Positions 456-11,939 of a stretch of 11,939 nucleotides of DNA are shown in pieces. How positions within the stretch are numbered: position 1 is the first letter of the stretch; each line of letters begins with the position of its first letter. The notes under the pieces are model-generated. The model searched no databases, had not been told where the DNA came from, and saw only the letters and a program-made list of their open reading frames with translations. Origin of the DNA: Candidatus Hydrogenedentota bacterium (GTDB taxonomy: Bacteria > Hydrogenedentota > Hydrogenedentia > Hydrogenedentales > CAITNO01); contig JAKPUV010000474.1 in assembly GCA_029554925.1 (NCBI GenBank), forward strand, positions 1 through 11,939, read 5' to 3'. The translations under genes were made by a program, and so were the position numbers.

Positions 456-1694
456 TCAGGAGGCCAGCGCCGCCTGCACCGCTTCTGTCAGCAGCTTCTC
501 GAAGTCGGGCGGCATGCCCTCGAACACCTTGGAGACCAGGCCCTTGCGGTCAACGACCACGATGAAGGGGATGCCCTGGACGCCGTAGAGGTTGCCCACC
601 TTTCCGTCCTTGTCCATGGGCACCGGCATGTCCATCTTCCTGGACTCCAGGAACTTGGAGACCGTCTCCGGGGGCTCCGCCTGGTTCACGGCGTAGAGCT
701 TCACCCCCTTGTCCGCGTGGGCGTGAACCACCTTCTCAATGACCGGCATGGCCTGGCGGCAGGGGCCGCACCAGCTGGCCCAGAAATCCAGCACCACCAC
801 CTTGCCCTTTTCCGCGGAGAGCGTCATCTCGCCGCCCTTGAACAGCGGCAGGGTGAAGTCCGGCGCGGGGGCGCCCGCCTTGAGGGACGAGCCCTGCCCC
901 TCGCCGGGTTCCGGCTCCTTGCGGTCCTGCACCTTCACCCCCTCGGGGGCGGTGAACACAAACTGCTCATCCTTGAGCTCCGGGTTGACCCGCCAGTTGG
1001 AGAACTGGAACACCACCTCGGCGGTGATCTTGTCGCCCCCGTGGTTCTGGGCGGAAACCGCCTTCGACATGTCGGCGTTGAGCTGGACCAGGCGCCGCTT
1101 CTCCCCGGGCGCGAGCCACGCCGTGACGTCAAAGCCCTCGTAGGCGAGCGCGATGCCGTCGCAGGAAAGGCCGCCAATCTCCCGCGTCCCCGCATGGGTC
1201 ACGGACTGCGCCTCGTTCACGAGTTCGGCGTTGCCGTGGAGGAAATCGGCCAGCCACACGCCCGGCGCCTTGAGCAGGCCGCCCATGGCCGCCGACGCAA
1301 GCACGGGGCGGGGCACTTCCTGCTCCAGCCGGTCGGCGCGCTTTTCGGCGGGCAGGTACACGTTGTGCACCTTTCCGTTGCTGATGATCTGCACCTCAAA
1401 CGCGCCCGACTGCTCCCGCAGGCGCTGCCACAGGTCGCTCTTGCCGCGGAGGAGCATTTCCCCCTCGAACGCCTGCTCGCTCACATCCTCCCCGCTGTCG
1501 GAAGCCTTTACCGCCCGGGTGTTTGCGGAGAAATCCACCCCCACGGAGGCAAACGAGGAGACCTCCCGCATCGCGTTTTCCAGCAGTCCCTTCGCGTTTT
1601 CATCCACTTCCTGCGCCGCCGCAAACGCGGCCAGGCACACCGCGGCCAAACACGCCGTCACCGCCGGGGCCATCCGCTGCTTCTGTGGGTTCAT
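456..1694 (-). CDS. Secreted DUF2092-TlpA fusion: thioredoxin-fold periplasmic protein
   Basis: This 412-residue exported protein has two parts. Residues 1-28 form a signal peptide: basic MNPQKQR, then an Ala/Leu-rich core ending AAFAAAQ. Residues 30-255 resemble the DUF2092/LolA-like lipoprotein-carrier fold, including a GGLSCDGIAL segment near 174-183, DVTAWLAPGEK near 189-199 and a closing F-FTAPEGV. Residues 272-412 are a TlpA/redoxin-like thioredoxin domain with WCGPC at 308-312 and the cis-proline loop GIPFI at 374-378. The active-site pair C309/C312 is intact, so a periplasmic disulfide reductase or thiol-redox role is likely; the substrate is unknown. The open frame extends to an ATG at 1796, but I reject that start because it sits in the likely promoter and would bury the signal peptide. 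An AGGAG lies about 11 nt upstream of 1694. The gene leads a probable operon with the methyltransferase. Confidence 0.85.
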   Translation of the reverse strand: MNPQKQRMAPAVTACLAAVCLAAFAAAQEVDENAKGLLENAMREVSSFASVGVDFSANTRAVKASDSGEDVSEQAFEGEMLLRGKSDLWQRLREQSGAFEVQIISNGKVHNVYLPAEKRADRLEQEVPRPVLASAAMGGLLKAPGVWLADFLHGNAELVNEAQSVTHAGTREIGGLSCDGIALAYEGFDVTAWLAPGEKRRLVQLNADMSKAVSAQNHGGDKITAEVVFQFSNWRVNPELKDEQFVFTAPEGVKVQDRKEPEPGEGQGSSLKAGAPAPDFTLPLFKGGEMTLSAEKGKVVVLDFWASWCGPCRQAMPVIEKVVHAHADKGVKLYAVNQAEPPETVSKFLESRKMDMPVPMDKDGKVGNLYGVQGIPFIVVVDRKGLVSKVFEGMPPDFEKLLTEAVQAALAS

Positions 1695-1739
1695 TTCGCT
1701 GCATGCTCCTGTTTGCTCGCTCCGAAGGTTCAAACGTCT

Positions 1740-1783
1740 CCGGGGAACACCCGGCTGACGGGCCGCATTTCGGGCACCCCCGG
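1740..1783 (-). other. Possible folded leader of the thioredoxin mRNA
   Basis: Arms CCGGGG (1740-1745) and CCCCGG (1778-1783) are complementary. Within them a GCCCG/CGGGT pairing can extend the stem, so the transcript leader on the minus strand could fold into an imperfect hairpin. There is no T tract, so it is not a terminator. It may be only a by-product of GC-rich sequence. Confidence 0.2.
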
Positions 1784-1795
1784 AAGGAATGCGCA

Positions 1796-1804
1796 TTTAT
1801 ACCA
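1796..1804 (-). promoter_or_regulatory. Extended -10 promoter candidate for the thioredoxin/methylase unit
   Basis: Read on the minus strand the sequence is TGGTATAAA, an extended -10 (TGn-TATAAA). No convincing -35 lies 16-18 bp upstream, which is tolerated for extended -10 promoters. Transcription would start near 1789 and leave a leader of about 95 nt before the ATG at 1694. The element overlaps the alternative ATG at 1796, which argues for the downstream start. Confidence 0.45.
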
Positions 1805-2078: not shown

Positions 2079-4733
2079 ATGGCGATGATGCGTCCCGCTC
2101 CCGGTTCGGCAAAGGGCAAAGGGCACAAGCGCCTGGGTGCCCTTTTAATCGAGGACGGGGCCATCACGCAGCAGCAGCTGGACAAGGCGCTGGAGGTGCA
2201 GGGGGAGAAGGGCGGGTATCTGGGGGGGATTCTGGTGGACCTTGGGCACCTCACCCAGGAGCGTCTGACGGAATTTCTTTCCAGGCAGTGCCAGATTCCG
2301 CACGTCAGCCTCATCGGCTATGAGATCAACGACCAGGTCACCAAGCTGCTCCCGAAGGAAATCTGCCTGCGTCTGAACGTCCTTCCGATTGACAGGCTGG
2401 CCCGCATCATCACGCTGGCCATGGTCAACCCGCTGGACGCCGAGGCGCTGGAGGAGGTGCAGAAGCTCTGTCCGGACCTGCGCATCAAGCCCATCCTGTG
2501 CTCTTGGGGGCACTTCAAGACCGTCACGGAGCGCCTCTTCAGCGAGACGCCCGTGCTGCGCGTTGCGGACTACAGCATCCTCAGCCGTGAGCATTCCCCG
2601 GCGAAGCCCAAATCGGCGGAAGAGCGGGCGGCGGAGCAAAAGGGCAGGGATGCCGGCCCCGGGCTGGTAGACGAAGGGGACGAGGCGGTGCCCGCGCCGT
2701 CCCGTCCGCCGACGCGCGGGCTGGGGGGCGGCCTCCAGACCATCTCCGCGGACAGCGCCCGGCAAATCGGCTCGGCCCTGAGCGAGGGGTTGCAGGAAAG
2801 CCTCGCGGAGCTTCTCACCGCCCTGCGCGAACACCGCGCCGCGCCCGCGCAGACAGACCCCGCCGACACGCTCACGGAACTGACCGCGGGGTTGCGGGAG
2901 TCCATGGAGACCTCCATCCAGTCGCTGGCGGGCGAACTCCGCGCCAGTCTGGACGGGCTGAAGGAGAGCTGGCCCCAGCCCCCCGCCGACGGCGGGGAGG
3001 ACCGGCTGGCCGGCCTGCTCCGCGAACAGCTCGGCGCCTCCGTGTCCGAGGCCATGCAGCCGCTCACCGCCCAGATCGCCGAGGTGGCCGCGGAGATGCG
3101 CCGGGGACCCGAAAAGGACTCCGCGCCGGACTTCGTCGCCCTGGCCCAGGGCATCCAGGACGGCGTGGGCGCCGCAGTGGGCACCGCCCTCGCGTCGGTC
3201 AGCGCGGAGCTGCGGTCCCTGAACGAGCTGCAGCAGCGCGTCCCGGACGGACCCACCCCCTCGGAGTGGGCCGAAGCCGCCAGTCAGAGCGTGGGCGCCG
3301 TGGTTCGCGACGCCATGGAACAGCTGGGGGAGAATCTTCGCGCCACCCTTGCGGGGCAGGCGGAGAGCCGGGAGCAGTCGGGGCAGGAACTCGCCAAACT
3401 TGCGCAGGCCCTCCAGGAGGGCGTGGCCCACGCCGTGGAGGACTCCATGGCGGGCATGGCCGTGCAGTTGAAGGACGCGCTCGCGCGCGGCGACAGCGCC
3501 GACGAGGAAAGCAGAAGCCAGGCGGCGGCCGCCTTGGCGGAGCGGCTCGCCGAGGCGGTGAACCGGGGCCTGGCCGAACTCCGCGACGCCCAGAAGGGCC
3601 AGGAATCGGAGCTGGCCCGCGTCGCCGAGACGGCCCTCGCCGCCATCGCCTCGGAAAGCCGGAACGCGCTCACGGCGCAGCAGGAGGAACTGGCCCGCAT
3701 CGCGGAGACGACGCTGCAGTCCATCCGCGAGGCCCGGGAAACCCAGGAGAGCCAGCAGTCGCAGCTGGCCAAGATCGCCGAGGCGGCGTCCCAGTCCGTC
3801 AAGCAGACCACCGAGCTGATCGAGTCGCACCTGGTCGCCGAGAGCAACCGCCGCGACCTCATGCGCCGGCGCAAGAACCGGCACGCGTCGGTGGCCCCCT
3901 TCGGCCTCGGGCCCGACGCCGACCCGGACGAGGCGACACGGGTGGACGAGTCGGACGGGCGGATTATGGACGCCCTGGACTCGGAGATCCCCCTGGAGTC
4001 CCTCACCTTTGAGAATTACTTCCCGGGGAAGGTCAACGCGTTCACTTTCAAGGTGGCGCAGGCCGTGGCCACGGCGCCCGGGGGCGACTACAACCCCCTC
4101 TTCCTCTACGGCACCGTGGGCTGCGGCAAGACGCACCTCATCAGCGCGATCGGCAACACGATCCTCACGGGCGGCGGCAAGAAGTCCAAGGGCCCCGCGC
4201 CCCGGGTGGGCTACGTGTCCGCCAGCCATTTCGCGCGGCGGCTCGCGGACGCGGTGGCCGAGGGCGCGCTGGACGCATTCCGCGAAAACTACTGCCACTG
4301 GGACGTGCTGATTCTGGACGACATCCAGTTCCTTGGCGGGCGCGTGGAGGCGCAGGAGGAGTTCTTCCACATTTTCAACGCCCTGCACCAGCAGGGGCGG
4401 CAGATCATCATCGCCGCGGACAAGGCGCCCGACCGCCTCGGCCTGCTGGAACAGCGCCTCATCTCCCGGTTTGCGAGCGGCATTGTGGCGGAGCTCAAGC
4501 CGCCGGAGTGGGAGACGCGGATGCAGATCCTCAAGCACCAGATGTCCGGGGCGGGGGTGCCGGTTCCCGAGGAGATTCTCTCCCTCATCGCCATGCGCGT
4601 GCCGGGCGACGTGCGCAAGATGATCGGCGCCCTGAGGAAGATCACCGCGTTCGCGCGGCTCATTGGAAAGGAAATCAGCGTGGAGATGGCCCAGGAGATC
4701 CTGAGCCACCTTGGCGCGGAGGAGGCCGCATGA
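2079..4733 (+). CDS. MshEN domain - helical repeat - DnaA-like AAA+ ATPase fusion
   Basis: This 884-residue protein has an unusual architecture. Residues about 17-155 are an MshEN (GspE/PilB N-terminal) domain with both tandem c-di-GMP-binding motifs: R18-L19-G20, L23, L34, L38, Q41 and then Y47-L48-G49, L52, L63, L67, Q70. Residues about 160-225 are a Pro/Ala-rich linker. Residues about 225-590 are roughly ten degenerate helical repeats, probably coiled coil. A basic cluster (RRDLMRRRKNR, 591-601) and an acidic linker follow. Residues 640-884 are the DnaA domain III AAA+ module: Walker A GTVGCGKT (678-685), Walker B with D747/D748 followed by IQF, arginine-finger region RLISRF, and a sensor-2 helix with DVRKMIGAL. 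The DnaA domain IV helix-turn-helix is absent, as in Hda. The ATG at 2079 has AAAGG 7 nt upstream; an upstream TTG at 2028 is less likely because it runs through the leader hairpin. The protein is probably cytoplasmic and linked to the pilus motor by operon position. Its function is inferred, not known. Confidence 0.85.
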   Translation: MAMMRPAPGSAKGKGHKRLGALLIEDGAITQQQLDKALEVQGEKGGYLGGILVDLGHLTQERLTEFLSRQCQIPHVSLIGYEINDQVTKLLPKEICLRLNVLPIDRLARIITLAMVNPLDAEALEEVQKLCPDLRIKPILCSWGHFKTVTERLFSETPVLRVADYSILSREHSPAKPKSAEERAAEQKGRDAGPGLVDEGDEAVPAPSRPPTRGLGGGLQTISADSARQIGSALSEGLQESLAELLTALREHRAAPAQTDPADTLTELTAGLRESMETSIQSLAGELRASLDGLKESWPQPPADGGEDRLAGLLREQLGASVSEAMQPLTAQIAEVAAEMRRGPEKDSAPDFVALAQGIQDGVGAAVGTALASVSAELRSLNELQQRVPDGPTPSEWAEAASQSVGAVVRDAMEQLGENLRATLAGQAESREQSGQELAKLAQALQEGVAHAVEDSMAGMAVQLKDALARGDSADEESRSQAAAALAERLAEAVNRGLAELRDAQKGQESELARVAETALAAIASESRNALTAQQEELARIAETTLQSIREARETQESQQSQLAKIAEAASQSVKQTTELIESHLVAESNRRDLMRRRKNRHASVAPFGLGPDADPDEATRVDESDGRIMDALDSEIPLESLTFENYFPGKVNAFTFKVAQAVATAPGGDYNPLFLYGTVGCGKTHLISAIGNTILTGGGKKSKGPAPRVGYVSASHFARRLADAVAEGALDAFRENYCHWDVLILDDIQFLGGRVEAQEEFFHIFNALHQQGRQIIIAADKAPDRLGLLEQRLISRFASGIVAELKPPEWETRMQILKHQMSGAGVPVPEEILSLIAMRVPGDVRKMIGALRKITAFARLIGKEISVEMAQEILSHLGAEEAA
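2739..3834 (+). repeat. Degenerate helical repeats encoded in the fusion gene
   Basis: The middle of the fusion protein repeats a loose unit of roughly 25-40 residues with the pattern 'LA..L.E.V..A...L..L...L'. The three clearest copies begin at residues 511, 537 and 562 (ELARVAET, ELARIAET, QLAKIAEA), with periods of 26 and 25 residues. Earlier copies such as LSEGLQESLAELL, LTAGLRESMETSIQ, LAQGIQDGVGAAVG and LAQALQEGVAHAVE are more diverged. The composition is rich in Ala, Glu, Gln, Leu and Ser, which suggests an extended helical rod or oligomerising coiled coil. Confidence 0.65.
4718..4725 (+). promoter_or_regulatory. Strong ribosome-binding site for the 13-codon coupling ORF
   Basis: GGAGGAGG sits inside the last codons of the MshEN-DnaA-like gene, 4 nt before the ATG at 4730. 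By contrast the pilB ATG at 4768 has only a poor purine-rich upstream sequence (GCGGGTG). Ribosomes loaded here would translate the short ORF and terminate on the pilB start. Confidence 0.5.
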
Positions 4734-4771
4734 CCGCCCCCGGGCGGCGCGGCAAGCGGGTGAACACATGA
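4730..4771 (+). CDS. Candidate 13-codon coupling ORF between the fusion gene and pilB
   Basis: The ATG at 4730 overlaps the stop of the upstream gene in an ATGA arrangement. The frame reads MTAPGRRGKRVNT and its TGA (4769-4771) overlaps the pilB ATG (4768-4770) in a second ATGA. With GGAGGAGG 4 nt upstream it has the best ribosome-binding site in this junction, while pilB has almost none. It could act as a translational relay that ties PilB synthesis to the upstream ATPase; the basic peptide itself probably has no function. Chance is possible for so short a frame, but the double overlap is notable. Confidence 0.4.
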   Translation: MTAPGRRGKRVNT

Positions 4772-6492
4772 AACTGCAGAAGAAGAAGCTTGAGGACATG
4801 CTCCTCTCCGAGCATCTGGTCACCAGCGACCAGATCCGGGAGTGCCTGCAACTCCACCGGACCACGGGGCACAGCCTGCCCCAGCTCCTGGTGGAGAAGG
4901 GCTATCTCAGCGAGGAGAACCTCGTCGTCACCATCAGCGAGCACCTGGGCATCCCCCACATCCGGGTGGCCAACTACAACATCCCCAAGGAGGTGCTCGG
5001 CCAGGTGCCCGAGGCGCTGGCGCGCCAGTACATGATGCTCCCCGTGTCGCTCACCGGCGAGGTGCTGACGCTGGCCATGGCCGACCCGCTCAACATCATG
5101 GCCATCGACGACCTGCGGATGATCTCGAACTACGAGATCGAGCCCGTGGTCGCCATGATGGGCGAGCTTCGCGAGGCCATCGACCGCCACTACGGCGGCG
5201 GCAAGGCCGACAAGCTTTTCAAGACCCTCACGGCGGCCCAGGCCGAGCGCGAGGAGGAGCTGGAGGGGGTGTCCGAGATCACCGAGGAGGTGGAGGACGT
5301 CTCCAACATGGAGGAGGGGGCGAACGACGAGCCGGTCCGGAACATGACCCGGTTCATCATGTTCAACGCCCTCGAGCGCGGCGCGAGCGACGTGCACCTC
5401 GAGCTGTTCGAGAAGCTCGTGCGCGTGCGCTACCGCGTGGACGGCTCCCTGGAGGAGGGCAAGGCCCCCCCGAGAAGCATGCACGCCAACATCGTGGCGC
5501 GGCTCAAGATCCTCTCCGGCTGCCGCATCGACGAGCGCCGCCTGCCGCAGGACGGGCGCTGCCGCATGCGCTACAAGGGGCGCGACATTGACTTCCGCGT
5601 CGCCTTCCTCCCCTGCAAATACGGCGAGAAGGTCGTGCTCCGCGTTCTCGACCAGAGCAGCCTCACCCTGGACCTCGACAAGCTGGGGTTCGAGCCGCAG
5701 CCCACCGAGGCCTTCCACCACGCGCTGGACATGCCCCACGGCATGATCCTCATGACGGGCCCCACCGGCAGCGGCAAGACGACCACCCTCTACAGCGCCC
5801 TGCACAAGCTCAACACGGTGGACACCAACATCGTGACGGTCGAGGACCCCATCGAGTACGAGCTCTTCGGCGTCAACCAGGTGCAGGTCAAGCAGCAGAT
5901 CGGCTTCACCTTCGCCGAGGCCCTGCGCCAGATCCTGCGCCAGGACCCCGACATCGTCATGGTCGGCGAGATCCGCGACGGCGAGACGGCCGACGTCGCC
6001 GTCAAGGCGGCCCTCACAGGCCACCTCGTCCTGAGCACCCTGCACACCAACGACGCCTCGGGCGTCTTCCCCCGTCTGATCGACATGGGGGTCGAGCCCT
6101 TCCTGGTGCAGTCGTCCGTGGCGCTCGCGGCGGCCCAGCGCCTCCTCAAGAGGGTGTGCCCGGAGTGCAAGGAGACCATCACCGTGCCCCCGGACGCGCT
6201 TGAGCGCTTCCAGTACCAGCCGTTCGACTACATCCCCGAGCCGCAGTTCGTGCGCGGGCGCGGCTGCCCCAAGTGCAAGGACACGGGGTACAAGGGCCGT
6301 GTCGCCGTGATCGAGGCCATGCTCAACTGGCCCCAGGTGCAGCCGCTGGTCCTGCAGCGCGCCGCGGGGCAGGACATCAAGCGGATGGCCATCCAGTGCG
6401 GAATGAAGACCCTGCGCCAGAACGCCCTCTCCAAGGCGGCCCAGGGCCTCACCACGCTCGAGCAGGTGCTGGAGCACACCATTGCCGACTGA
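4768..6492 (+). CDS. pilB: PilB, type IV pilus extension ATPase
   Basis: At 574 residues this matches the usual PilB length. PilB is the cytoplasmic hexameric motor that powers pilin polymerisation at the inner-membrane platform PilC. Residues 7-155 form an MshEN-type N-terminal domain. Its c-di-GMP motifs are degenerate: KLE replaces RLG at 7-9, H30 replaces the first Gln, P38 the second Gly and H59 the second Gln. The secretion ATPase core has Walker A GPTGSGKT (331-338), the Asp box EDPIEY, Walker B DPDIVMVGEIRD with catalytic E401, and the His box TGHLVLSTLHT. A zinc-binding tetracysteine, CxxC at 464/467 and 500/503, is typical of PilB/GspE and absent from PilT. The ATG at 4768 precedes the domain closely; an upstream TTG at 4711 lies inside the previous gene. 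pilT follows after 49 nt. GspE of a type II secretion system is the alternative, but the PilT neighbour argues for pili. Confidence 0.95.
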   Translation: MKLQKKKLEDMLLSEHLVTSDQIRECLQLHRTTGHSLPQLLVEKGYLSEENLVVTISEHLGIPHIRVANYNIPKEVLGQVPEALARQYMMLPVSLTGEVLTLAMADPLNIMAIDDLRMISNYEIEPVVAMMGELREAIDRHYGGGKADKLFKTLTAAQAEREEELEGVSEITEEVEDVSNMEEGANDEPVRNMTRFIMFNALERGASDVHLELFEKLVRVRYRVDGSLEEGKAPPRSMHANIVARLKILSGCRIDERRLPQDGRCRMRYKGRDIDFRVAFLPCKYGEKVVLRVLDQSSLTLDLDKLGFEPQPTEAFHHALDMPHGMILMTGPTGSGKTTTLYSALHKLNTVDTNIVTVEDPIEYELFGVNQVQVKQQIGFTFAEALRQILRQDPDIVMVGEIRDGETADVAVKAALTGHLVLSTLHTNDASGVFPRLIDMGVEPFLVQSSVALAAAQRLLKRVCPECKETITVPPDALERFQYQPFDYIPEPQFVRGRGCPKCKDTGYKGRVAVIEAMLNWPQVQPLVLQRAAGQDIKRMAIQCGMKTLRQNALSKAAQGLTTLEQVLEHTIAD

Positions 6493-6541: not shown

Positions 6542-7624
6542 ATGCCCGAGAGTCTGAGCATCAAAGAGCTGCTGACCAAGATGATCCAGGAGGGGGCCAG
6601 CGACATGCACATCATCGTGGGCGGCCCCCCGATGATCCGCGTGCACGGCTCGGTGGAGCCGCTTCCCGGATACCGCCGCCTCACGCCGGACCAGACGCAG
6701 GAGCTCATCTACAGCGTCATGACGGAGCAGCAGGTGGCCGAGTTCGAGGCCACCCGCGAGTGCGACATGTCCTTCGGCATTGACGGGCTGAGCCGGTTCC
6801 GCCTCAATGTCTACCGCGACCGCGGCTCGGTCGTCGCCGCCTTCCGCACCATCCCCTTCGAGATACTCTCCTTCGAGCAGCTGGGGCTCCCGCGGGTCAT
6901 CTCCGACTTCGCCCACCGGCCCATGGGGCTCGTGCTTGTCTGCGGCCCCACCGGCAGCGGAAAATCCACCACCCTCGCCGCGATCCTGGACAAGATCAAC
7001 CGCGAGCGCAAGACCCACATCATCACCATCGAGGACCCCATCGAGTACCTCCACTCGCACAAGATGTCCATCATCAACCAGCGCGAGGTGGGCGCCGACA
7101 CCAACGGCTTCTCGGAGGCCCTGCGCCGCATCCTGCGCCAGGACCCCGACGTGATCCTCATCGGCGAGATGCGCGACCCGGAGACGATCCAGGCCGCCCT
7201 CACCGTCGCGGAGACGGGCCACCTGGCCTTCGCCACGCTGCACACCAACGACGCGCTCCAGACCATCAACCGCATCGTGGACGTGTTCCCCTCGGCCCAG
7301 CAGGCGCAGGTGCGCACCCAGCTCTCCTTCGTGCTTGAGGGCGTGGTGGTGCAGCAGCTCATTCCGCGGGCCGACGGCCTCGGCCGCGTCCTGTCCATGG
7401 AGATCATGATCCCCAACGCGGCCATCCGCTCGCTGATCCGCGCCGAAAAACTGGAGCAGATCCCCTCCATGATCGAAATCGGCAAGGGCGAGGGGATGAT
7501 GACCATGAACCAGTCCCTCTACCGCCTCATGCGCCGCGGCATCATCACCCCTGACATGGCGTTCAAGCGCACCATGGACCCGGAGGGGCTCCAGAATCTC
7601 GTCGAGAAGGGGCTCCGGGATTGA
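6542..7624 (+). CDS. pilT: PilT, type IV pilus retraction ATPase
   Basis: This 360-residue protein has the normal PilT length and is the hexameric ATPase that depolymerises pili, driving twitching motility and DNA uptake. It has a short N-terminal PAS-like domain with the conserved GASDMHI (residues 17-23), Walker A GPTGSGKS (135-142), the Asp box IEDPIEY, Walker B DPDVILIGEMRD and the His box TGHLAFATLHT. It also has the PilT signature AIRSLIR at 294-300 (family consensus AIRNLIRE), which is needed for retraction. It lacks the PilB tetracysteine zinc site. The ATG at 6542 has AAGG 8 nt upstream; an in-frame GTG at 6515 would add nine residues with no better ribosome site. The gene sits between pilB and pilS. 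pilC, found at this place in some clusters, is missing. Confidence 0.95.
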   Translation: MPESLSIKELLTKMIQEGASDMHIIVGGPPMIRVHGSVEPLPGYRRLTPDQTQELIYSVMTEQQVAEFEATRECDMSFGIDGLSRFRLNVYRDRGSVVAAFRTIPFEILSFEQLGLPRVISDFAHRPMGLVLVCGPTGSGKSTTLAAILDKINRERKTHIITIEDPIEYLHSHKMSIINQREVGADTNGFSEALRRILRQDPDVILIGEMRDPETIQAALTVAETGHLAFATLHTNDALQTINRIVDVFPSAQQAQVRTQLSFVLEGVVVQQLIPRADGLGRVLSMEIMIPNAAIRSLIRAEKLEQIPSMIEIGKGEGMMTMNQSLYRLMRRGIITPDMAFKRTMDPEGLQNLVEKGLRD

Positions 7625-7664: not shown

Positions 7665-9344
7665 ATGAGGGGCCGCAGGCGCCGGAAACCCCTCTGGGAC
7701 AGCCCCCTGCTGCTCCGGGCGGGGAGATTCCTGCGCCCGGTGTACGACGGCCCCCCCTCCTGGCTCTGGTTCGCCGGACTCGGCCGGGCCGCCGCCATCC
7801 TCCTGATCGCCGGGGGCGCGCACACCCTCGTGCGGGACGACCTCGCCTACAACATCCTCATCGGCATCTATCTCGCCGCCGCGGTCTGCGGTGTCTCCTA
7901 CCTCTACTCGCTGCGCGCCACCTCGCATGTCACCCCCGGCCTCACCTGGACGCAGATGCTGCTCGACTTCAGCGTCGTCGCGGCGACGGTGAGCTTCACG
8001 GGGGGGCAGGAGAGCGTCTTCGTCTTCCTGCTGCTCGTGGTCGTGCTCGAGGCGGGCGTGCTGCTCGGGCTCGCCCAGGGGTTCCTCTTCTCCGTGGGCG
8101 CGGCCGCCTTCCTGCTCTGGATGTCCCTCGACAGCACCCTGCCGCAGAAATCGGCCGTCGAGCACTGGTACAACCTCTCCCTCCAGTGGGTGGCCCTCTT
8201 CTGCGCCGCCTTCATCAGCGGCTACTGGAACCTCCGCATCAGCCGGATGAAGCAGTTCCAGCGGGAGATTCTGGACAACATGAACGGGGGGTTCCTCCTC
8301 GTGGGCCGCAACGGGGCCGTAGAGGGGGCCAACCGCGCCGCCTGCGGCATCCTGGGCATTGACGAGGCGCGCCTGCGGGGCCGCCCCGTGGACACGGCGC
8401 TGGTCCCGGAGGACGGCTCGGAGTGCCCCGTGGTCACCGCGCTCCGCGAGGGCCGCGACTTCCTGAGCTACGAGTGCGCCGTCCGGACGCCCAAGGGCGG
8501 GGTGCGCCTGCTCGGCCTCAGCACCAACCACCTGTACGACGCGCGGGGGCGCCTGGAGACCCTGATCGTCTCCTTCACCGACCTCACGGAGATGGACCGC
8601 ATCCGGAAGGAGATGATGCGCCAGGCGCGCATGGCGTACATCGGGGAGATGGCCGCCGAACTTGCCCACGAAATCCGCAACCCCGTGACCTCGATCCGCG
8701 GGGCCATGGAGGAGCTCGGCCGGGGCAACCTGCCCCCCCAGACCGCCGAGCGCCTCACGGCGATCACCCTGCGCGAGTCCGACCATCTGGAGAAGGTGGT
8801 CGCCGGCTTCCTCGACTTCGCGCGCAACCCCGAACTGCGCCGCGCGGCGGTCTCGCCGGCCGCGCTCGCGGGGGAAATGCGCGACCTTTTCGAGAAACGC
8901 CACCCCGGGCTGCGGGTGGAGGTCCGTGCGGAGTCCGGGGAGCAGGAGATCCACGCCGACCCCACCCAGATGCGCCAGCTCTTCATCAACCTCTGCCAGA
9001 ATGCCGCCGACGCCATGAAGGGCGAGGGGCGCCTGGACATTGTGATCCAGCCCCGGGAAAACTCGGTGGAGATCCGGTTCGAGGACTGCGGCCCCGGCAT
9101 CCCGCCGGACAAAGTTGCGCGGATATTCGAGCCGTTCTATACTGAGAAGGAGCGCGGCGTGGGCATGGGCCTCGCGGTCTGCAGCAGGATCGCGACGGTG
9201 CATGACGGCACGATACAGGCCGCGACACGGCCGGGGGGGGGCGCGGCCTTTGTCGTCCGCCTGCCCAGGGCCCTTCCCGGCGCGCCCGAAGGCGACGAAA
9301 CCGGCCGGACGGCGGCGTCGGGCCCGGAGGAAACCCAAGCGTGA
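7665..9344 (+). CDS. pilS: PilS-type membrane sensor histidine kinase
   Basis: This 559-residue protein has about six transmembrane segments (around 33-52, 61-82, 96-112, 115-130, 131-154 and 171-188) and almost no periplasmic domain, as in PilS kinases that sense within the membrane. A PAS domain covers about 198-315. The HisKA dimerisation domain holds the phospho-accepting H335 in HEIRNP. The ATPase domain has the N box with N446, the G1 box DCGPGIP (474-480), an F box around FEPFY (488-492) and the G2 box GVGMGL (498-503), so the kinase looks complete. It should autophosphorylate and pass phosphate to D55 of PilR. The coding end overlaps the pilR start by 4 nt (GTGA), indicating translational coupling. 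The assignment to PilS rather than another sigma-54-linked kinase rests mainly on topology and on pilB/pilT next door. Confidence 0.88.
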   Translation: MRGRRRRKPLWDSPLLLRAGRFLRPVYDGPPSWLWFAGLGRAAAILLIAGGAHTLVRDDLAYNILIGIYLAAAVCGVSYLYSLRATSHVTPGLTWTQMLLDFSVVAATVSFTGGQESVFVFLLLVVVLEAGVLLGLAQGFLFSVGAAAFLLWMSLDSTLPQKSAVEHWYNLSLQWVALFCAAFISGYWNLRISRMKQFQREILDNMNGGFLLVGRNGAVEGANRAACGILGIDEARLRGRPVDTALVPEDGSECPVVTALREGRDFLSYECAVRTPKGGVRLLGLSTNHLYDARGRLETLIVSFTDLTEMDRIRKEMMRQARMAYIGEMAAELAHEIRNPVTSIRGAMEELGRGNLPPQTAERLTAITLRESDHLEKVVAGFLDFARNPELRRAAVSPAALAGEMRDLFEKRHPGLRVEVRAESGEQEIHADPTQMRQLFINLCQNAADAMKGEGRLDIVIQPRENSVEIRFEDCGPGIPPDKVARIFEPFYTEKERGVGMGLAVCSRIATVHDGTIQAATRPGGGAAFVVRLPRALPGAPEGDETGRTAASGPEETQA

Positions 9345-10732
9345 CGGTTAAACACCGTGTGCTTGTCGTTGACGACGAGCTGAGCATGCGCGAACTCCTC
9401 GAGATCGTGCTCGAAAGCGCGGGCTACGAGGTGCACTGCGCCTCCGGGGAGGACGAGGCCCGCGCCGCCATGGACGGCGTGCAGTTTGACGCCGCCATGA
9501 CCGACCTCCACATGGGGGGCGACCGCAACGCCGGCCTGCGCCTCCTCGCCTGGATGCGCGAAAACGACCCGCGCATGCCCGTGGTGGTCATCACGGCCCA
9601 CGGCTCGGTCGAGACGGCCGTGGAGGCCATGCGCCTCGGCGCCGCCGACTACGTCCAGAAGCCCTTCCGCTCCAATGATGAAATCCGCCTGCGCGTGGCG
9701 CGGGTCATCTCCGAGCGCAACCTCCGCCGAGAAAACGAGGCCCTCCGAAAGGACCAGGCCCACCGCAGCAGCCCCGGAAACATGGTCGGAAAGAGCCCCG
9801 CCTTCCTGGAGGTGCTCTCCATGGTCCGGCGCGTGGCGGGACTCCCCAGCACCGTGGCCGTTTACGGCGAGAGCGGCGCGGGAAAGGAGCTGGTCGCCCG
9901 GGCGCTCCACCATCTCAGCCAGCGGGCCGAGAAGCCCTTCGTCGCCATCAACTGCGGCGGCATTCCGGAAACCCTTCTGGAGAGCGAGCTCTTCGGCTAC
10001 AAGAAGGGCGCCTTCACCGGCGCCAACGAGGACAAGGAGGGTCTTTTCGTGGTCGCCAACGGCGGCACCCTCCTGCTCGACGAGATCGGCGAGATGCCGA
10101 TGAAGCTCCAGGTGAAGCTGCTCAGGGTGCTGGACAACAACTCGGTGACCCCCGTCGGCGGCACGGCCTCCATCAACGTCAACGTCCGCATTGTCTCCGC
10201 CACAAACCGCAACCTGGAGGAGATGGTGGAGCAGGGGGATTTCCGCAAGGACCTCTTCTACCGCCTCAACGTGATTCCCATCCACGTCCCGCCCCTGCGG
10301 GACCGGGGCGAGGACATTCCCCTGCTCACGCGGCATTTCATCCAGAAACACGCGGTGAACATGGGGTGCCCGGTGAAGGAGGTCTCCCCGGAGGCCGAGT
10401 CCCTTCTGCTGCGCTACTCCTGGCCCGGAAACATCCGGGAGCTGGCAAACGTGGTCGAGCGCGCCCTCGCCCTCAGCGGCGAGACCATCGAGCCGAGGGA
10501 TCTGCCGCCCGCGGTGCGGGAGTACGCGCCCCCGCCCGACATGCCGCTGGCCGACCTTCCCGAGGGCGGCGTCAATCTGGAGGCCATCATCTCGGACGTG
10601 GAGCGCAAGTACATCGAGCAGGCCCTCGAGCGCGCGCGCTTCTCCCAGATACGCGCGGCGGGCCTCCTCGGGCTCACCCCCCGCTCCCTGCGCTACCGCC
10701 TCCAGAAATACGGGCTGTCCGCGCAGGACTGA
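9341..10732 (+). CDS. pilR: PilR-type sigma-54-dependent response regulator
   Basis: This 463-residue NtrC-family activator has three domains. The receiver (about 5-120) has the acidic pair D11/D12, phospho-acceptor D55 and K107. The AAA+ domain has Walker A GESGAGKE (176-183), the sigma-54 contact loop GAFTGA (223-228) and Walker B around LLLDEIGEMP. The C-terminal Fis-type helix-turn-helix is at about 426-463. All features needed for phosphorylation-controlled, ATP-driven opening of sigma-54 promoters are present. In known systems PilR activates pilin (pilA) transcription; no pilA is in this window. The GTG at 9341 overlaps the pilS stop and has GGAGGA 9 nt upstream. A sigma-54-like promoter at the head of this operon makes autoregulation possible. 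A generic NtrC-type regulator is the alternative name. Confidence 0.9.
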   Translation: MTVKHRVLVVDDELSMRELLEIVLESAGYEVHCASGEDEARAAMDGVQFDAAMTDLHMGGDRNAGLRLLAWMRENDPRMPVVVITAHGSVETAVEAMRLGAADYVQKPFRSNDEIRLRVARVISERNLRRENEALRKDQAHRSSPGNMVGKSPAFLEVLSMVRRVAGLPSTVAVYGESGAGKELVARALHHLSQRAEKPFVAINCGGIPETLLESELFGYKKGAFTGANEDKEGLFVVANGGTLLLDEIGEMPMKLQVKLLRVLDNNSVTPVGGTASINVNVRIVSATNRNLEEMVEQGDFRKDLFYRLNVIPIHVPPLRDRGEDIPLLTRHFIQKHAVNMGCPVKEVSPEAESLLLRYSWPGNIRELANVVERALALSGETIEPRDLPPAVREYAPPPDMPLADLPEGGVNLEAIISDVERKYIEQALERARFSQIRAAGLLGLTPRSLRYRLQKYGLSAQD

Positions 10733-10736
10733 CCCC

Positions 10737-11939
10737 TCAGCCCGCCGCCGGACGGAGGTCCTTCAGGATGAGCTGGATGGACCCGTCCATGGCCCGCTCG
10801 TCAAACACCGGATTGAAGGCGATGTCCACCAGCGCCGGAAAGTTGCCCGCAAAATAGCGCTCCGCATGGCGGAACCACAGGGCGGCGAAGGCCTTGTCCC
10901 CCTGGCGCAGCGACATCTTCAGGTGCTGGTCCTTGAGCACGCGCACCGACGAGGGGACCACCTCCACGCCGTAGGCGGCGAACACCGGCGCGGGGTTTCC
11001 ATTGCCGAAAGGCTCCATCGCCTCCAGTGACCGCAGCAGCCCCTCGTCCACCATGCTCAGGGCCACCTGGGCGTCCACGTCGAGCAGGGGGCCCTGCGCG
11101 CCGGCCCCCTCCTGGCTTTCCACCGCGCGCACGAAATCCGCGGCAAAGGCGTCTATGGCGTCCCGGTTCAGGGTCATCCCCGCGGCGGCGCGGTGCCCCC
11201 CGTACTTGGTGAAATGGGCGCGGCACGCGTTCAGCGCCTCCATCAGGTCCACCCCCGGCACCGCGCGGGCGGACCCCCGGGCCACGCCGTTTTCCACGCA
11301 GAGCACGGCCACGGTCCGGTGAAACCGCCCGACAAGGCGCGAGGCCACGATGCCGACGACGCCCTGGTGCCACCCCGTGCGGGCAACCACGATGGCCGCG
11401 CTCCGGTGCAGGCCCAGCGCCTCGATCTCCTCCACGGCCTCGTTAAAGATGCGCTGTTCGATTTCCCGGCGCTCGTTGTTCGCCGCGTCGAGCAGGTCCG
11501 CCAGGCGTTCGGCCTCCTCGGGGCATTCGGCCAGCAGCAGGTCCAGGGCGGCCCGCGCGTCGTCAAGGCGGCCGATGGCGTTGAGGCGCGGCCCGAGCCG
11601 GAAGCTGATGCGCTCCGAAGTCACCCCTTTGAGGCTGAAGTCCGAAACCGCGGCCAGCCGCGCAAGCCCGAGGCGCTCGTAGCGCTTCATGTGCCGGATG
11701 CCCAGGGCCACCAGAACGCGGTTCTCCCCCACCAGCGGCATCATGTCCGACACCGTGCCCAGGGCCGCCATGTCCAGATCGTTGGGGGTGCCGTTGAGCG
11801 CGCAGCCCAGCTTGAAGGCCACCCCCGCGCCGCAGAGGGCGGCCCCGGGGTGCCCGTCGGCTTCGCGCCGCGGATTGATGACCGCGTCCGCGGGCGGAAG
11901 CTCTCCTTCGAAACTGTGGTGGTCCGTGATGACGAGGCC
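10737..11939 (-). CDS. recJ: RecJ single-stranded-DNA exonuclease, C-terminal part
   Basis: The last 400 codons of recJ are present; the 5' end lies beyond the right edge. RecJ is a Mg/Mn-dependent 5'-3' single-strand DNA exonuclease of the DHH family, acting in recombination and mismatch or base-excision repair. The fragment begins just before the DHH motif (ITDHH, fragment residues 4-8). It continues with LCGAGVAFKL, a GTVSDMMPLVGENR segment and RLNAIGRLDDAR. It then has GWHQGVVGIVASRL, the DHHA1 domain with GSARAVPGVDL and KYGGHRAAAGMTL, and a C-terminal OB-like domain around PFGNGNPAPVF. The upstream DHH-domain motifs (DxD) would lie outside the window. The apparent GTG start at 11822 is internal, since the family-conserved sequence continues upstream of it to the edge. 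The stop is 4 bp from the pilR stop, convergent. Confidence 0.93.
   Translation of the reverse strand, partial: GLVITDHHSFEGELPPADAVINPRREADGHPGAALCGAGVAFKLGCALNGTPNDLDMAALGTVSDMMPLVGENRVLVALGIRHMKRYERLGLARLAAVSDFSLKGVTSERISFRLGPRLNAIGRLDDARAALDLLLAECPEEAERLADLLDAANNERREIEQRIFNEAVEEIEALGLHRSAAIVVARTGWHQGVVGIVASRLVGRFHRTVAVLCVENGVARGSARAVPGVDLMEALNACRAHFTKYGGHRAAAGMTLNRDAIDAFAADFVRAVESQEGAGAQGPLLDVDAQVALSMVDEGLLRSLEAMEPFGNGNPAPVFAAYGVEVVPSSVRVLKDQHLKMSLRQGDKAFAALWFRHAERYFAGNFPALVDIAFNPVFDERAMDGSIQLILKDLRPAAG

Follow-up and report, generated by a model that had tools for sequence, protein, structure and literature searches.

The c-di-GMP-binding motif of MshEN domains, as set out in its published description (PMC5013675), consists of two 24-residue motifs joined by a 5-residue spacer, with key residues R, L, G, L, L and Q in each. 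Thermus thermophilus PilF, an MshEN-regulated motor of the PilB type, has three GSPII/MshEN domains, one of them apparently non-binding: according to PMC11731258, GSPII-B has Lys and Leu for the two Args yet binds c-di-GMP at 6 nM, and GSPII-A has a degenerate motif II, with data that point to no c-di-GMP binding. All MshEN domains of PilF lie within the motor itself, whereas in the locus described here the intact one lies in a separate AAA+ protein. Vibrio cholerae MshE (PDB 5htl) has the same fold and two-motif c-di-GMP site as the MshEN domain of that protein, but has a T2SSE motor attached where the fusion has a DnaA-type AAA+ core.

The targets of Hda, DnaC and IstB are other replication or transposition proteins, and for DnaA-clade AAA+ proteins the target is often a further oligomeric machine: DnaB for DnaA and DnaC, IstA for IstB. 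Like the fusion, Hda, DnaC and IstB have an AAA+ core without domain IV (structural matches 3bos, 3ec2 and 5bq5); unlike these three, the fusion adds MshEN, long helices and pilus neighbours, and it reaches 47.0 bits with the IstB model (cut-off 200). DnaA domain III (8btg, 2z4r, 1l8q) has in common with it the AAA+ fold, ATP site, Arg finger and sensor 2, whereas the fusion is without domain IV, has the H-motif residue mostly and the AID-1 residue always replaced, and carries MshEN and long helices in front. Among open-licence papers, searched by titles and the starts of abstracts, neither a DnaA-type AAA+ protein as a type IV pilus part nor any description of the fusion protein itself was found.

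The window, a stretch of 11,939 nucleotides from a Candidatus Hydrogenedentota genome, was initially annotated from its letters as encoding an MshEN domain, a long repetitive helical region and a DnaA domain III in one frame, followed by pilB, pilT, pilS and pilR. Pfam and NCBIfam matches and an AF2 model confirmed the former, and domain matches the gene order; the features are as follows.

456..1796, minus strand: divergent gene for a thioredoxin-like (redoxin) protein (DUF2092 match)
2079..4733, plus strand: fusion of MshEN, helical repeats and DnaA domain III (884 aa, one frame)
2130..2288, plus strand: predicted c-di-GMP-binding region, residues 18-70, 53 residues (NF053729, 57.5 bits against a cut-off of 38)
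2292..2549, plus strand: Pfam MshEN domain, residues 72-157 (PF05157, 2.8e-14, 53.3 bits against a cut-off of 23.1)
2748..3881, plus strand: helical repeat region, residues 224-601 (eight predicted helices, AF2 model)
3879..3902, plus strand: conserved RHASVxPF stretch, residues 601-608, directly before the AAA+ domain (conservation over 120 listed homologues)
4002..4709, plus strand: DnaA-type AAA+ domain III with lid, residues 642-877 (PF00308, 2.1e-51)
4768..6492, plus strand: pilB, pilus assembly ATPase (PF00437, 3.8e-131; TIGR02538, 630.4 bits, just below the cut-off of 675.65)
6542..7624, plus strand: pilT, pilus retraction ATPase (TIGR01420, 474.7 bits, cut-off 319.1)
7665..9344, plus strand: pilS-like PAS histidine kinase (HisKA, HATPase_c, PAS)
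9341..10732, plus strand: pilR-like sigma-54 response regulator (Response_reg, Sigma54_activat, HTH_8)

Both the MshEN and the AAA+ regions of the fusion thus match their families in profile searches, and structural modelling gave an MshEN fold (pLDDT about 90 or more up to residue 150), eight long helices and DnaA-type structural matches for the AAA+ part. The predicted c-di-GMP-binding region follows the published layout, with a 5-residue spacer between its two 24-residue motifs, but motif II opens with Tyr instead of Arg. Helices in the linker are spaced by about 42-45 residues in the model, and comparing the linker with itself gives peaks at offsets 45 and 42. The protein stops at residue 884, soon after the lid, with no further Pfam match and so no domain IV, and no PF00437 match to a T2SSE ATPase domain was found in it. 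One sigma-70-like promoter match lies 5' of the gene (1979-2007; one found against 0.1 expected in shuffles), and matches to the divergent redoxin/DUF2092 gene were seen upstream of the fusion in five other loci (L095, L096, L099, L104, L105). A defence system was ruled out, there being no PADLOC match at E 0.001. Elsewhere in the window's genome are PilM, a separate DnaA-type gene (contig C1146, a 520-aa frame with a stronger DnaA match than the fusion), and three GGDEF matches over cut-off, from which c-di-GMP can probably be made there. A third, weaker Bac_DnaA match in this genome (G000:C665:4268-4714, seen in L003 and L148) scored 56.3 bits in a 429-aa frame.

Among 7992 candidates scored from about 5.8 billion proteins, at least 274 homologues had E <= 0.001. 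PF05157 and PF00308 were both present in 118 of the 120 listed homologues, MshEN being missing from P0020 and P0026, and the seven listed homologues with an organism name (P0012, P0037, P0047, P0054, P0061, P0081, P0112) are all Hydrogenedentes or Hydrogenedens. A source names 14 of the 120 'chromosomal replication initiator protein DnaA', which is a naming problem. With an AAA+ profile (A2) made from the window and 28 sequences, all 28 from these Hydrogenedentota genomes, family members were found in 54 of 68 Hydrogenedentota genomes, the window's own included, at 359.6-546 bits, whereas true DnaAs of the phylum reach at most 303.3 bits with the same profile; a tally of 64 genomes also includes DnaA matches. 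An assembly or frame artefact was ruled out by the two domains in 118 homologues and the family in 54 genomes. The same profile found no family member, and no match above 304 bits, in 487 genomes of five other groups (Elusimicrobiota 79, Sumerlaeota 40, Omnitrophota 126, Verrucomicrobiota 125, a Bdellovibrionales-locus group 117), a scan that misses a very distant member scoring like DnaA and that had Planctomycetota and many others outside its sample. A contig search with the fusion says nothing on distribution: the best 80 loci, the only ones listed, match from query residue 565 on (the AAA+ region), and the list may lack records close to the window.

Fourteen of the 68 Hydrogenedentota genomes were without a full match. 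In two (G050, G055) the fusion copy is cut by a contig end, and in three (G019, G037, G063) the operon-type PilB occurs only at a contig edge, so that the site upstream of it is unreadable. Six others (G013, G014, G016, G025, G061, G065; 66-93% complete) have no full match and also no operon-type PilB, which was counted in favour of PilB as the partner, though several of these genomes are incomplete. In G027 the slot before pilB (L143, ORF 9699-11603) holds MshEN and a linker with no AAA+ domain. In genus g6 (G006, G011; 95 and 96% complete), pilB and pilT stand behind an unrelated gene, oxidoreductase-like by eye; the fusion is thus not always needed. Some members have divergent AAA+ cores (e.g., L127, L140). 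Elsewhere in a genome of the window's order, MshEN was found fused to a cyclic nucleotide-binding domain (L145:9000-10349).

The genes around the fusion were examined in 53 loci from 53 carriers other than the window. In 51 of these the next pilus gene is PilB, within 900 bp of the fusion stop codon, so that the homologues do not lie scattered without pilus neighbours; the remaining two contigs end 701 and 291 bp past the AAA+ match. The order after the fusion is PilB-PilT-PilS-PilR in 34 loci, PilB-PilT in 10 and PilB alone in 7. Six of the last (L101, L102, L103, L109, L112, L113; families f7 and f10) have 5-10 kb of room and yet no pilT, pilS or pilR near the fusion and pilB, so PilT must be elsewhere or absent there. 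Since PilB comes next in each of the 51 loci with enough downstream sequence and PilT does not always follow, PilB is taken as the constant partner, a refinement of the initial reading.

Alignment of 53 fusions with E. coli DnaA as reference, 21 DnaAs of the phylum and 24 other DnaAs was used to evaluate the AAA+ core, the roles of the Walker, sensor, Arg finger, H-motif, B-motif and AID residues being taken from PMC5742627. Walker A Lys178, Walker B Asp235 and Asp236, the Arg finger (Arg285) and sensor 2 Arg334 are each present in 53/53 fusions, and sensor 1 Asp269 is kept in 47. The ssDNA-binding H-motif position (E. coli Val211) is Ile or Val in 21/21 phylum DnaAs examined and in 23/24 others, whereas among the 53 fusions it is Ile or Val in 2, Ile, Leu or Met in 5, and Ala in 20, including that of the window. 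Likewise AID-1 Arg227 is found in 21/21 phylum DnaAs examined and in none of the 53 fusions (Cys in 41). The AID-2 Leu290 position is Ile in 43 fusions and Box VII Arg281 is kept in 41. B-motif Arg245 is replaced by Glu or Asp in 45 fusions, but this position says little, because the 21 DnaAs of the phylum themselves have Ala, Ser or Gly there (the Arg is also missing in 12 of the 24 others). Judged by these residues, the fusion core is expected to bind ATP, may be able to assemble as DnaA does, and is unlikely to handle DNA in that protein's way. Identity as the DnaA replication initiator was rejected on the missing domain IV, the mostly replaced H-motif residue and a TIGR00362 score of 276.2 bits (cut-off 343.9), and identity as Hda on a TIGR03420 score of 97.2 bits (cut-off 194.8).

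Scores for the c-di-GMP motif were obtained from 46 fusions and from 49 PilBs of the operon type that have a fusion next to them; these counts leave out L142 and L143 (MshEN with no visible AAA+), the PilBs of L143, L210, L211, L218 and L219, which have no visible fusion AAA+ beside them, and the PilB of L120, which was unaligned over the motif. In the window, the fusion has 11 of the 12 key residues, only the motif II Arg being replaced, against 4 of 12 in its PilB. The motif glycine is kept in 44/46 fusions for motif I and 41/46 for motif II, compared with 19/49 and 0/49 in the partner PilBs; in solved PilBs (5zfr/5tsg and 3jc8, of Geobacter and Myxococcus) it is kept in both motifs. By the strict 12-residue score, the fusion stood above its PilB in 26 of 42 pairs, with 8 ties and 8 below (means 8.9 and 7.4); with the doubtful pairs L120 and L143 added (44 pairs), the figures were 27, 8 and 9. 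In 44/46 fusions the motif II Arg position is Phe or Tyr, a difference from MshE; GSPII-B of Thermus PilF tolerates Leu there. GSPII-A of Thermus PilF reads SLA at motif II, as do many PilBs beside fusions. From motif integrity and the parallel with PilF, c-di-GMP is probably bound by the fusion and probably not by the partner PilB. The PilBs of genus g6, with no fusion beside them, also have broken motifs, so the sensor role did not return to PilB there.

Taken with the PilB neighbourhood, these findings led to a model, given even chances, in which the fusion is an accessory ATPase of type IV pili that serves PilB specifically, gated by c-di-GMP and switched by ATP. Its MshEN domain would bind c-di-GMP, a task apparently lost by the partner PilB, and the long helical arm would tether this sensor to the DnaA-type AAA+ core, which would bind ATP and form head-to-tail assemblies by way of the Arg finger; c-di-GMP and the ATP/ADP state would then jointly govern the assembly of PilB, its docking on the pilus base or its firing. 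The c-di-GMP binding, the ATP-driven oligomers, the contact with PilB and the direction of control are predicted from sequence, and conserved neighbouring genes do not prove that fusion and PilB touch. Points that speak against the model are genus g6 and G027, the 8 ties and 8 losses among the 42 motif pairs, the motif I glycine retained by 19/49 PilBs, the five fusions with Ile, Leu or Met at the H-motif position, and the divergent AAA+ cores of some members. A nucleotide-switched, c-di-GMP-responsive ATPase acting on the pilus motor had been proposed at the outset, and that proposal is supported, by inference, through the ATP-site residues, the near-intact motif and PilB as the next gene. 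If the model is right, c-di-GMP no longer controls the assembly motor through PilB itself but through a second ATPase, and the core of a replication initiator has come to regulate a different ATPase; the locus suggests the reuse of a replication-type machine for pilus control. PMC5013675 and PMC11731258 describe the action of c-di-GMP on pilus motors as still open, and the fusion offers a testable handle on it.

Polar hubs of type IV pili gather components in other bacteria. The fusion might similarly be a positional scaffold: its AAA+ oligomers and helical arm would label a place in the cell and bring PilB to it, with ATP setting assembly and c-di-GMP release. The linker varies from 176 to 744 residues, with a median of 380 (lengths were obtained for 113 of the 120 listed homologues), which would suit a tether, and PilB is the constant neighbour; the fully conserved residues of the ATP site and sensor 2, however, suggest more than a passive scaffold, and this reading is considered unlikely. 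MshEN-type domains are present in both fusion and PilB, encoded side by side, and the fusion could instead be a brake or decoy whose MshEN competes with the PilB N-terminal domain for the platform (PilM or PilC) until c-di-GMP or ATP releases it. The gene in G027, with MshEN and linker but no AAA+ domain, has the form a pure binder would have. Such competition leaves no role for the AAA+ core kept in 54/68 genomes and must be judged quite unlikely. The accessory ATPase dedicated to PilB remains the preferred reading.

A link between the replication cycle and pilus activity, offered initially as a more speculative option, would have the AAA+ domain bind true DnaA or DNA. The domain is of DnaA type and, with the Arg finger kept, hetero-oligomers with DnaA are conceivable, but domain IV is absent, the H-motif (2/53) and AID-1 (0/53) residues contrast with 21/21 in the phylum DnaAs for each, and the downstream neighbours are pilus genes. 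With a separate DnaA-type gene (C1146) also in the genome, the link was not supported and appears highly improbable. It is equally improbable that the fusion feeds the PilS-PilR two-component system rather than the motor, as the gene order of the 34 four-gene loci would allow, given the six roomy f7 and f10 loci where only pilB accompanies it.

The relation of the fusions to other DnaA-type proteins was examined in a tree of 75 sequences (18 of the 53 fusions, 12 of the 21 phylum DnaAs, 14 of 22 Elusimicrobiota and 10 of 14 Sumerlaeota proteins, 20 of the 24 other DnaAs, and E. coli DnaA). The fusions form one group with support 100; they group with the Sumerlaeota proteins at support 92, not starred. 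Neither a clade of the fusions with their phylum's own DnaA (p-AU 0.31) nor one with the Elusimicrobiota fusions (p-AU 0.415) was rejected.

In Elusimicrobiota, 23 long DnaA-III proteins were picked by a frame of at least 531 aa and a strong score, and 22 loci were examined (G151 left out). These fusions have an N-terminal domain, DnaA-III and a C-terminal domain (L030, L169-L188, L208), with no MshEN match in the 22 loci. In 17/22 loci the fusion is preceded by a same-strand PilT gene no more than about 3 kb from the AAA+ domain (the others being L172, L181 at a contig edge, L183, L188 and L208), and 12/22 have a histidine kinase match nearby. The L030 operon holds a GGDEF protein; because GGDEF matches occur near only 2/22 of these fusions (L030, L171), no general c-di-GMP link is claimed for them. 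DnaA-III modules may thus have joined pilus motors more than once. By analogy with DnaA-clade proteins that act on oligomeric machines, which suggests a motor loader, the Hydrogenedentota fusion might load or remodel the hexameric PilB ring under c-di-GMP gating, as DnaA and DnaC do with hexameric DnaB, a similar module having been recruited beside PilT in Elusimicrobiota and replication-initiator AAA+ cores being recurrent in motor control; this broader idea is tentative and, on balance, rather doubtful. A second, very divergent DnaA-like AAA+ was also seen in long frames of Elusimicrobiota (L189-L194), with the sensor 2 Arg missing in 6/6 examined.

In Sumerlaeota no PilB or PilT was found in the 14 loci examined. 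In this group 31 of 40 genomes have DnaA-III in long frames of 900-2160 aa (e.g., L200:5918-10006 and L015:5510-10762), and of the 14 proteins examined 13 retain the hydrophobic residue of the H-motif and 13 retain Arg245. The L200 protein has TPRs and ends in DnaA-III; by eye it seems to begin with a primase-type zinc finger, for which no Pfam match was listed.
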